Source: Gossypium raimondii
Taxonomy: Eukaryota; Streptophyta; Magnoliopsida; Malvales; Malvaceae
NCBI RefSeq assembly: GCF_025698545.1
Contig: NC_068570.1
Coordinates: forward strand, 1,302,001-1,366,000
Reading direction: 5' to 3'
DNA length: 64,000 bases
The position numbers and the translations under genes are program-made. Of the stretch, positions 14,318 to 63,327 are shown piece by piece; the stretch's first letter is position 1; every line of letters begins with the position of its first letter. A model generated the notes under the pieces. It was not told the DNA's origin and did no database searches. It saw only the letters and a list, made by a program, of their open reading frames with translations.

Positions 14318-14957
14318 TAGGGGTGTTCATTCGGTTAACCGACCCGAAATTACTATAACCGAATTAACCGACCTTCCAAAAATTTTAACCGTTAACCGAA
14401 CCAATTTTTTTTTTAAAAAAATTAACCGAACCGAAATTTTTTCGGTTAATAAGGTCGGTTAACCGAATTAACCGAAAATTATGTATTTTTTATTTTTGAT
14501 TAAAAATTACCCGAATTACCCGAATTACCCGAATTAACCGAATTAACAGAATTAACCGAATTACCGAAAAATACCCGAATTACCTGAATTTTTTTATTTT
14601 TAAAATTTAAAAAATTTATAAATTATTAAAGTAAATTGGGTTTTAGACTTTAGTAAATTGAGTTGTCTTTTAGTTTTAGTTTTATTGGATTGGGTAATTG
14701 GGTAAACTTTAGTTTTAGTTTTATTGGGTTGGGTAATTGAGTTTGAGCTAGGTTAGATAATTTTATTTATTAATTTTTTCGGTTAACCGAAAATTTTCGG
14801 TTAACCGACCGGTTTCGAACCGAATTAACCGTTAACCGAAAAATCATAAAAAAATTAACCGACCCCCGACCGAAAAAATTCGGTTAACCGACCGATTAAC
14901 CGAATTCGGTCGGTTAACCGAATTTTTTCGGTTTTACCCGAATTGTGCACACCCCTA
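14318..14957. mobile_element. Non-autonomous hAT-type element rich in CGGTTAACCG
   Basis: A 640-bp element bounded by TAGGGGTGT at both ends in inverted orientation (left TAGGGGTGTTCATTCGG, right complement TAGGGGTGTGCACAATTCGG). It is flanked by a perfect 8-bp target duplication GTTCGGGT at 14310-14317 and 14958-14965, the hallmark of hAT insertion. The interior is built from repeated 'aaccgaattaacc' words and many CGGTTAACCG palindromes, so it can fold heavily on itself. No transposase is encoded. Confidence 0.88.
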
Positions 14958-59518: not shown

Positions 59519-62500
59519 ATGGAGGGTGTAAAGGAACAATTACAAGCTCCTATATATAGAACTTTAACCACCGTACATAGCATTGATGGTGGTGGAATAA
59601 GAGGGATCATCCCTGGAATTATACTTGGTTTCTTAGAATCTGAACTTCAGGTACGTACGTGCACTCGGTCACTATAATATACATGCATGCACACAAGCAT
59701 GTCTATATATATATATATATATATACATATACTATGTGCTATATTTTAGTCTTATTAATATGGGTCAAGTTTAGGGAGCTAGAGAAGTTGACTAGGACCC
59801 AGGTCATTTGAGTTTGATCATTAGGATTTTCAGATCAGGTTATTTCAAGTTCAAATCATTTTATTTTTTGATCGCTTCTAGTTACTTGTCAAGTTATCTT
59901 AGGTTATTTGTTCTGGTCATTTTGGGTTTGAGTCAATTTTGAATTCGAGTTGGGCACGTTCAAGTTTGTTGAGAAAATGTCAATGGACCTCTCAACTGGT
60001 TGTGGTATTGTCTATTGTCAGGGTTGTCTCCCCACTCTGCGAAGAGGTGACAGGTTTACAGAGTAGGAGCTAGATTATAAAGTAGTATCATGTGCTCCTC
60101 AAGATTACCTATAAGCCCTATGCTCACATTTCCTTTAGTAGGTAGCCGTGCACCATTCATGGTCCCAATGAGACGCTCCCGTTCTATCAATTTGTCATTT
60201 CTTCCGGCAATCTTAGGCATTCAAATTCTCTATTGAATTGAAGACAAAACTCTGACTAAGAACATGCTGATCTGTTGATGAATTTATCGTTACTTTAAAA
60301 CCATTATAAAATAGAGACAATTTCTCTCCCAATAAAGGTATTAACCTTTTATAATCATATCCAATCAATAACAACGAATTAGAGTTGAAAGGTCTAATAT
60401 ATACAAACCAAATTGACATAGACTACCATAAGTACATTGACCTAATTTTGCTTATCACTAGGTACAGATTTTATGTTTTGTGTTATTACATAGAAACTGG
60501 ACGGTGAAGATGCAAGACTAGCAGATTACTTCGATGTGATAGCAGGGACCAGCACCGGTGGCTTGGTGACAGCCATGCTAACTTGTCCGAACGACAAGAA
60601 CCGACCATTATTTGCTGCCAAAGACATCAAAGACTTTTACTTAACTAATTGTCCTAAAATATTCCCTCAACCAGGGTACAGCACACTTTTTTAGCAGTAA
60701 AACTAAAAATCAAATTGTATTTTGTTCACTCTATTAAAAAAGAGTAAATTAGTCTTTGTATGTTAAATCAAAGAGTAAATTAATTTTTTCTGTTAAAAAT
60801 TCTATCTATTTGTATTGTTAAAAACTGGTATGACAAACAGAATAGCTAGGTAGTAAAACGTGGCACGCCACGTATACCTTATGCTAATGTATAAGATCAG
60901 TTTTTAACAGTAAGAATGGATGAATTTTTTAACAGAAAAACCGGTTTGCTCTTTGATCTAATATATAGGACTAACTTACCTATTTTTTCGAGTAAGAAGA
61001 GTAAAATGCAATCTAACTCCTAGTAAAATGACTCCATGATGCTTAATTTTACCACCCAAATAATGATTCTAACAGTATTTTATCAGATAAAATTAAGTAA
61101 CATTTTTATTTTTATTACTAGATTTCCATTGTTTTCTCAAACAACAAAAGTTCTCAAAGCTCTATCAGGACCAAGATATGATGGCAAGTTCTTACATTAC
61201 ATTATTAAAAAAAAACTAGAAGGGAGAAGGTTGAATGAGACATTAACTAATGTTGTTATCCCAACATTTGATATCAAGCTTCTCCAGCCAGTCATCTTTT
61301 CAAGCTTTCAGGTTCCCACATATACATATACATATACATATATGTATGGTTTGTCTTATCATGTCGTGTTTGAACATGCAGGTGAAAAAAAACCCTACTT
61401 TGAATGCCTTACTTTCAGACATATGCATAGCAACCTCAGCTGCACCAACATACCTCCCTGCTCATTACTTTAAAACCATAGTCTTCGAAAGGAAAAAAAG
61501 AGAAAATAACCTCATTGATGGTGGTGTGGCTGCAAATAACCCAGTATGCATCGACAAAGAGGAAAGAGAAAATAACCTCATTCATGGTGGTGTGGCTGCA
61601 AATAACCCAGTATGCATCAAAGAAGAGGAAAGAGAATATAACCTCATTGATGGTGGTGTGGCTGCAAATAACCCAGTATGCATTCTCAAAATGATAACAC
61701 TTATTCAATTATATAGTCAAATATGCAGTAATGTCCTTGTAATTTTACCAAATTTACAATTTTGTCCTTAATTTGCATTTTTTTTTTCAGACTTTACTGG
61801 CTATGGGGGAAGTGAGCAGGGATATTATTGACAAAAACGGTGATTTGGGTACCCAAAAAAACAAAAACGATAATTCCAAGCCGTGTAATGAAGCCATAGA
61901 CTATAGTAAATTTCTGGTTATTTCGTTGGGGACTGGCTCTAGCTCTGAGGCAAAAACCACAACGAAATACAGTGCTAAACAGGCGGCCAAATGGGGTATG
62001 TTAGGGTGGTTAACCAGCGGTGGTTCGACGCCGTTAGTGAATGTTTTTACTCAAGCCAGTGGAGACATGGTCGACCTTCACCTGTCTGTTTTATTTAAAG
62101 CTCTTGACCACTCAGATAAATACCTTCGAATCCAGGTAATTTAATGCATGCATTCGCACTTAATTTGAAAAATAATTTGGTTAAAATGTGCCTATAATTC
62201 CTATACTTTTTGAAAATTAGGAAATTTAATCCTTGTTCTTGTATTTCTAGAAATTTAATCTCTCTACTTTTTAGATTTTAAAATTTAGGTCAAACTGTTA
62301 ACATTGATAATTTTTTTGTTAAATTTGTTGTTGTGACATTTTGAAATAAAAAACTACTCACTGAATAGTTGTGTAATTTTAAAATGATGTTATAATTAAC
62401 TTGACTTTAACAAAAATATTTAACAATATTAACAGTTGGACCTACATATTAACTATCTAGTTCGAATCGGTCAAGCCATCGGTTCATCAGTCTGTCTAAT

Positions 62501-63327
62501 TCAATTTAATAAATCATTAAAAAAATTAATTTTTTAAAAAAATTAAACATTTGGTTCAATCTGTTTTAAGTCCAGTCCAATCAATCCGTACAGGTTCCCA
62601 TCTCATCCATATCTAAGGCCTTTCTTCCGACAAGTAGTATCCTAGTTGGTTCACGGTCCAATATATTTGAGGCCGATTCAAATAACCATGGGAAAATGAC
62701 TTAAATGGCTTTCTTTTTACAAAGTAAATTATATTGTTAGGAGAGTATTTTTACCTTTTTATATTTCTAAAATTGTTAATTAATATAATCGTAAAATTAT
62801 ATTTCTTCGTTCTAAAGTTTAAAATTTAATTTCGGACCCAAAAATTTTCTACCCCACCCTTGCTAGCATTCCCTAATTGAAATTGTGCACCAGCTCGAAA
62901 ATCATTAAAGAGACGACGGTTCTGGGTAACAATGTTCTAATCTACTGCTTGTTATCATCATTGAATTGTACGTAGGATGACGAATTAAAGGGGGATGTAT
63001 CATCTGTGGACATAGCCACGAGGAAAAATTTGGATGAATTGGTCAGAGTCGGCGAGAAACTGTTGAGGGATCCAGTTTCTAGGGTTGACTTGGTAACCGG
63101 CAAGTTCAAGCCCGTCACTGAAGAGACTAACGAAATAGCCCTTAAAAGGTAATATATAGGAATTTGCCCCCCATAAATTTACATTTTGGTCCCAATAATT
63201 TTTTAGTTTTACTTCATCTCCTATTTAGAGAAAATTTGATGTTTGTAGGTTTGCAAAATTACTGTCCGAAGAGAGACAGAAACGACATCCTAAACCACTT
63301 CAAGAGAAGGCTGAAACACAAAATTAG
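59519..63327 (+). CDS. Patatin-like phospholipase
   Basis: Lipid acyl hydrolase of the plant patatin-like family, releasing fatty acids from membrane lipids in defence or storage contexts. Seven exons: 59519-59650, 60494-60675, 61122-61311, 61382-61543 (or to 61609 or 61675), 61791-62135, 62976-63148, 63249-63327. With the first donor the product has 420 residues, the usual length. DGGGIRG (Asp23-Gly29) is the oxyanion-hole loop, GTSTGG has the nucleophile Ser64, and DGGVAANNP supplies the catalytic Asp214. The exon-4 end is unusual: a 66-bp block with the Asp motif and splice donor CCA|GTATGC is present three times in frame, so 420-, 442- or 464-residue products are possible. The middle repeat has HGG in place of DGG. 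No signal peptide is evident. The start codon directly follows an (AT)n run. A polyadenylation-like AATAAA is near 63417. Confidence 0.93.
60690..61053. mobile_element. Foldback MITE copy 11 (intron 2 of patatin gene)
   Basis: Left end partly degraded ('agcagtaaaactaaaaatc'), right end 'gactccatgatgcttaattt'. The interior words 'caaagagtaaattaattttt' and 'gtttgctctttgatctaat' identify the family. It begins within about 15 bases of the splice donor at 60676. Confidence 0.72.
61478..61680 (+). repeat. Three tandem 66-bp repeats at the end of patatin exon 4
   Basis: Unit length is 66 bp (22 codons), seen from the splice-donor-like GTATGCAT at 61544, 61610 and 61676. Each unit encodes a form of [17 protein letters not shown] plus KEER. 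The units differ by few bases: unit 2 has CATGG (His-Gly) where units 1 and 3 have GATGG (Asp-Gly), and unit 3 has TAT for the first AAT. The high similarity points to a recent expansion. Confidence 0.95.

Follow-up and report, generated by a model that had tools for sequence, protein, structure and literature searches.

The exon that carries the catalytic Asp motif of one patatin-like gene of Gossypium raimondii ends in a threefold repeat, with a 5′ splice site in each copy. The question that this locus raises is which of the three donors is joined to the acceptor downstream and, with that choice, which protein is made. The gene (gene A) lies near the end of a stretch of 64,000 nucleotides from contig NC_068570.1, called the window below, and all positions count from the first letter of that stretch unless another coordinate system is named. 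Table 1 collects the features on which the discussion draws.

Table 1. Features of gene A and of its repeated exon-4 end (window coordinates).
Feature	Position	Strand	Remarks
Patatin-like phospholipase gene (gene A), pPLAII/PLP2 type	59519-63327	+	7-exon model
Exons of gene A	59519-59650, 60494-60675, 61122-61311, 61382-(61543, 61609 or 61675), 61791-62135, 62976-63148, 63249-63327 (TAG)	+	
GTSTG nucleophile motif	60545-60559	+	exon 2; residues 62-66, Ser64, intact
Repeat unit 1	61497-61562	+	donor after 61543
Repeat unit 2	61563-61628	+	donor after 61609; His replaces catalytic Asp
Repeat unit 3	61629-61694	+	donor after 61675; 53-nt core same as neighbour gene B
Donor-dependent segment, exon or intron	61544-61675	+	132 nt, 44 codons, open
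Intron 4 core	61676-61790	+	115 nt; start aligns with gene B intron 4

The exon model is a manual prediction, guided by homology and by splice dinucleotides. Its spliced translation is free of stops, AG precedes all six acceptors and GT follows every donor. The Pfam Patatin profile (PF01734, curated cut-off 27.7 bits) matches both the shortest and the longest predicted product above that cut-off, at 80.2 bits (3e-22) for the form of 420 residues and 86.6 bits (3.3e-24) for that of 464 residues, and the 464-residue form has its best match among solved structures in Patatin-17 (1oxw, 2.4e-80). Both motifs of the family are found, namely a GxSxG nucleophile (GTSTG at residue 62) and the DGG/A Asp motif. 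The profile match and the stop-free seven-exon model bear out the first-pass annotation, which had named a patatin-like gene; the product would be a pPLAII patatin-like acyl hydrolase, its activity being a prediction. Intron 2 contains an inverted repeat of 43 nt with 84% complementarity (60785-60827 and 60898-60940), possibly the remnant of a small mobile element.

The end of exon 4 and the first bases of intron 4 consist of three head-to-tail units of 66 bp, in frame and together covering 61497-61694. An earlier reading had recognized this array but placed it at 61478-61680, which begins 19 bases early and ends 3 bases (Tandem Repeats Finder) or 14 bases (repeat search) short. The units are spaced by 66 and 66 bases, and identity to unit 1 is 94% for unit 2 and 89% for unit 3. 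Tandem Repeats Finder describes the array as 61497-61683, with a period of 66, 2.8 copies and 95% matches; because its score of 339 tops all 30 rows in the window, the array is not a matter of chance, and a chance repeat was rejected as an explanation. A separate tandem repeat, with a 9-bp period (AATTACCCG, 9.4 copies), occupies positions 14505-14590 of the window. Every unit of the array carries CCA followed by the donor GTATGCAT, after 61543, 61609 and 61675 (donors 1, 2 and 3), each copy thus holding an exon end together with an intron start, in other words a duplication across a splice boundary. The core common to the units is 53 nt long (45 nt of exon plus GTATGCAT). Pairwise, the units differ at 4, 7 and 10 of 66 positions and their cores at 1, 1 and 2 of 53, and the three donors are the same from -25 to +8.

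The acceptor AG of intron 4 ends at 61790, and splicing donor 1, 2 or 3 to 61791 gives 420, 442 or 464 residues, in each case without a stop. Much of what had been claimed for the array is reproduced by these spacings and joins: three in-frame units of 66 bp, a shared donor (CCA/GTATGC), a product of 420 residues from donor 1, and 22 or 44 residues added in frame by donors 2 and 3. The claim that every unit contains the Asp motif holds for units 1 and 3 (D214 and D258) but fails for unit 2, which reads HGG (H236). The enlarged forms had accordingly been credited with two or three Asp motifs, whereas donor 2 brings a His motif and not a second Asp; with unit 2 reading HGG, the 464-residue form holds the Asp motif twice and the His motif once.

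Information on the origin of the array comes from its neighbour. Gene B (L009:2847-8155; C6:1366847-1372155) is patatin-like, has the same orientation and starts about 1.5 kb past gene A; all seven exons are matched, and its Asp-motif unit is single. Compared with that unit, the core of unit 1 has one difference, that of unit 2 has two and that of unit 3 has none. When the 66 nt past each donor are compared with intron 4 of gene B, donor 3 scores 36, donor 1 scores 10.5 and donor 2 scores 9.0, the low values past donors 1 and 2 being expected since the sequence there enters the next unit. Because the core of unit 3 is the same as that of gene B and the intron that follows it is alignable, it is unit 3 that looks ancestral, not unit 1. 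Unit 3 is probably the ancestral copy, and donor 1 as the ancestral site was rejected by the core and intron comparison. Further, GTATGCATC is common to both unit junctions, which, with the gene B comparison, fits one duplication followed by expansion in register. The order of events suggested by these difference counts, which are small, would begin with a single exon-4 end and donor GTATGCAT that was duplicated in tandem, the breakpoint falling shortly after the start of the intron; the duplicated end would then have grown in register to three copies.

The array was also placed in the context of the genome (751 Mb in 281 contigs), which was searched as a whole with a degenerate pattern for GGVAANNP; a primer for cotton ubiquitin has a single, exact match in this genome. 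The search yielded 11 exact matches, three in the array and eight single, motif variants lying outside its reach. By this exact motif search no repeated copy was found beyond the array of gene A, which is unique in this genome. A looser pattern was run over nine paralogous loci (L009, L011-L017 and L023), a set kept apart from distant members (L001-L007 and L018-L022), from loci that repeat a scanned place or the window (L008 and L024-L028), from the flank L010 and from two short DNA matches (L029 and L030). One motif copy was present in each of the nine, and the array as a feature of the patatin family was rejected on this ground; the duplication in gene A appears to be derived, its relatives within this genome being single-copy. 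GT stands right after the NNP/NDP codon, in the same phase, in all nine loci as well as in all three array units, consistent with a phase-0 intron at this point across the paralogues, the use of which is judged from homology. A DNA search with the array region returned seven matches. Aside from the window itself, the best of them (86%) falls in gene B, some 6 kb downstream, and comes in two pieces that bypass the extra units of gene A. The part of intron 4 at 61740-61786 matches C3 (32 nt, 100%) and C10 (45 nt, 87%) and is perhaps a repeat remnant.

How, then, might the three donors be told apart? Because they are the same from -25 to +8, their intrinsic strength is no discriminator, and position and context must decide. 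A rule for identical donor hexamers was not found in the portion of PMC12480690 drawn on here. AU-rich sequence is described as essential for intron definition and for the choice of the 5′ splice site in dicots, in a review and in an Arabidopsis study (PMC2682935, PMC9813592). The 132-nt insert between donors 1 and 3 is exon-like, with 20% T, 58% AT, 63% purine and no stop; for the 115 nt past donor 3 the values are 44% T and 76% AT. Only introns 1, 2 and 5 are long enough to hold windows of 132 nt; none of the 1736 overlapping windows taken from them, which are not independent of one another, is as poor in T as the insert (27 of 132). The exon windows of gene A (n = 398) contain 26-43 T, so that the 27 of the insert lie at the low edge. 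Exonic enhancer hexamers, taken as the 36 from Arabidopsis shown in table 1 of PMC1892810, match the insert five times and the 115-nt intron 4 core not at all; the exons have 2-5 matches each, and the other five introns of gene A (2299 nt) have six together. Donor 3 is, in addition, the donor closest to the acceptor. The AU-rich intron that starts only after donor 3, the exon-like insert and the proximity to the acceptor together lead to the prediction of donor 3 as the main site, with the qualification that the composition of the insert was inherited from the exon sequence it derives from and is no proof of present use.

The array probably serves as an extension of the exon. The favoured explanation, which is considered fairly likely, combines a duplicated exon-4 end with dominance of donor 3 and a protein of mainly 464 residues. 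Since the unit measures 66 bp and has no stop, exon 4 is lengthened by 132 nt. The spliceosome would mainly use the donor at 61675, which kept the original AU-rich intron, and proteins of 420 and 442 residues would arise to a minor extent from donors 1 and 2. In the 464-residue protein, unit 3 would supply the catalytic Asp (D258), beside the usual continuation TLLAMGEV, and units 1 and 2 (D214 and H236) would lie as inserted sequence within the linker that joins YFKT to NLIDGG.

The stretch before NLIDGG is visibly variable among the paralogues, as judged by eye and unscored in ten genes. If unit 3 is catalytic, the 44 extra residues would fall in this linker, before the Asp, which is the favoured arrangement; if unit 1 is catalytic, they would sit between NNP and the TLLAMGEV segment, which is less favoured. 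In the HMMER alignments with Patatin-17 and with the Pfam profile it is unit 1, and not unit 3, that is matched, a placement that is indecisive because the copies are near-identical. Both of the two changes among the unit cores alter amino acids, so protein-level constraint on units 1 and 2 is not evident. A point against the 464-residue form is that 44 residues inserted beside the catalytic Asp could harm folding. The array, its frame, the comparison with paralogues and the base composition are observations; the order of events, the donor preference, folding and activity are inferred.

A different outcome, possible but not the one expected, is that three equal donors are used in mixture and yield proteins of 420, 442 and 464 residues, possibly in a regulated manner, as in the built-in switch proposed by the first-pass annotation. 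The shared donor sequence and the in-frame joins from all three sites are what such a mixture calls for, but the downstream context and the distance to the acceptor differ strongly among the donors and favour donor 3. Nor is there a sign of conservation, the exact-motif search showing no second repeated copy in this genome. A regulated donor switch in gene A is possible but unsupported. It is improbable that the array, having copied the catalytic-Asp motif together with the donor, lets donor choice set Asp, Asp plus His, or Asp plus His plus Asp, and that each form has its own activity or substrate range.

Another reading concerns the gene and not its splicing: gene A might be a decaying or silent duplicate, and the array would then be without effect on any protein. 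This is unlikely; it is compatible with any of the splicing readings, and the likelihoods expressed here do not sum to one. Divergence was assessed over 374 codons common to gene A, gene B and a third gene, C (the C5 paralogue, L011), exon 7 and gapped positions being excluded. The dN/dS ratio is 0.52 for A-B, against 0.18 for A-C and 0.14 for B-C, and gene A has accumulated 40 residue changes on its own lineage versus 12 for gene B (chi2 15.1, p 0.0001). This asymmetry persists when the linker is removed together with the region of the exon-5 insertion (30 versus 11, p 0.003). In addition, two stretches in exon 5 of gene A, one of 11 and one of 3 residues, are absent from both compared paralogues, where they appear as alignment gaps.

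These signs of rapid change would suit a silent copy, but the seven exons are open, the splice dinucleotides are all intact, as are the GTSTG and DGG motifs, and dN is lower than dS in the A-B comparison (Fisher p 0.0003). Moreover, the synonymous change of gene A is also higher: its branch has dS 0.19, dN 0.086 and a ratio of 0.45, and that of gene B has dS 0.047, dN 0.037 and a ratio of 0.78, so that weaker constraint on A than on B is not supported. As modelled, gene A is a fast-changing copy with an intact coding sequence. Along the gene, the synonymous divergence between A and B is 0.125 in exons 1-3 and has risen to 0.53 by exons 6-7; the low values in the 5′ exons could reflect past gene conversion there.

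It is quite unlikely that donor 1 dominates and that units 2 and 3 lie harmlessly in the intron, the arrangement that had been taken as standard. It would yield a single-motif product of 420 residues whose Asp, at 214, bears the residue number reported for GhPLP2 (PMC8593000), and the replacement of Asp by His in unit 2 would be cost-free. However, it requires an intron of 247 nt that opens with 132 nt rich in purines and poor in T, in contrast to the other introns of gene A, whereas an AT-rich intron begins only past donor 3. The ancestral-looking pair of donor and intron belongs, moreover, to unit 3, and the earlier choice of donor 1 is not upheld. An assembly error is very improbable, for although short near-identical repeats are prone to mis-assembly, the pairwise differences given above, with a His change and three junction bases that tell units 1 and 2 apart, led to the rejection of a simple assembler copy.

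Gene A can be set beside known patatins. Its model of seven exons is like that of the cotton subgroup II patatin-like genes, for which seven exons and six introns are given in section 8 of PMC10685517. Gene A resembles GhPLP2 and Patatin-17 in having GTSTG and DGG, the motifs of the Ser-Asp dyad, as well as the DGGGIRG element, the roles of these motifs being taken from PMC8593000. It differs from them in that the exon end with the Asp motif is present in three copies, theirs being one, and in the 44 additional residues that would result from use of donor 3. The array illustrates the in-frame growth of an exon out of its own end, and it raises the question of how well a Ser-Asp acyl hydrolase tolerates added residues next to the active-site Asp.

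The closest precedent is an RdRp gene of potato, in which an intron-exon boundary lies within a tandem duplication, as documented with genomic and RNA reads (PMC4974935). Both cases are short tandem duplications across a splice boundary of a plant gene that copied the splicing signals together with the contrast between exon and intron composition. The potato duplication, as reported there, affects the boundary of intron 1 to exon 2, thus the acceptor side, and is accompanied by a new intron and 106 RNA-seq reads. Gene A is instead a donor-side array of three copies, with no new intron inferred. Beyond this precedent, none of the open-access titles listed by the literature searches names a gene with a repeated donor array, patatin or other. 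Tandem duplication across a splice boundary is a known kind of event, of which gene A is a donor-side, three-copy case. Competition between duplicated 5′ splice sites was reportedly described by Reed and Maniatis in 1986, and proximity and exon sequence are said to have mattered. Their substrates were engineered, whereas the array of gene A is natural and in a plant, and it makes a natural test case for donor choice in plants, with three donors of the same sequence that compete for one acceptor.
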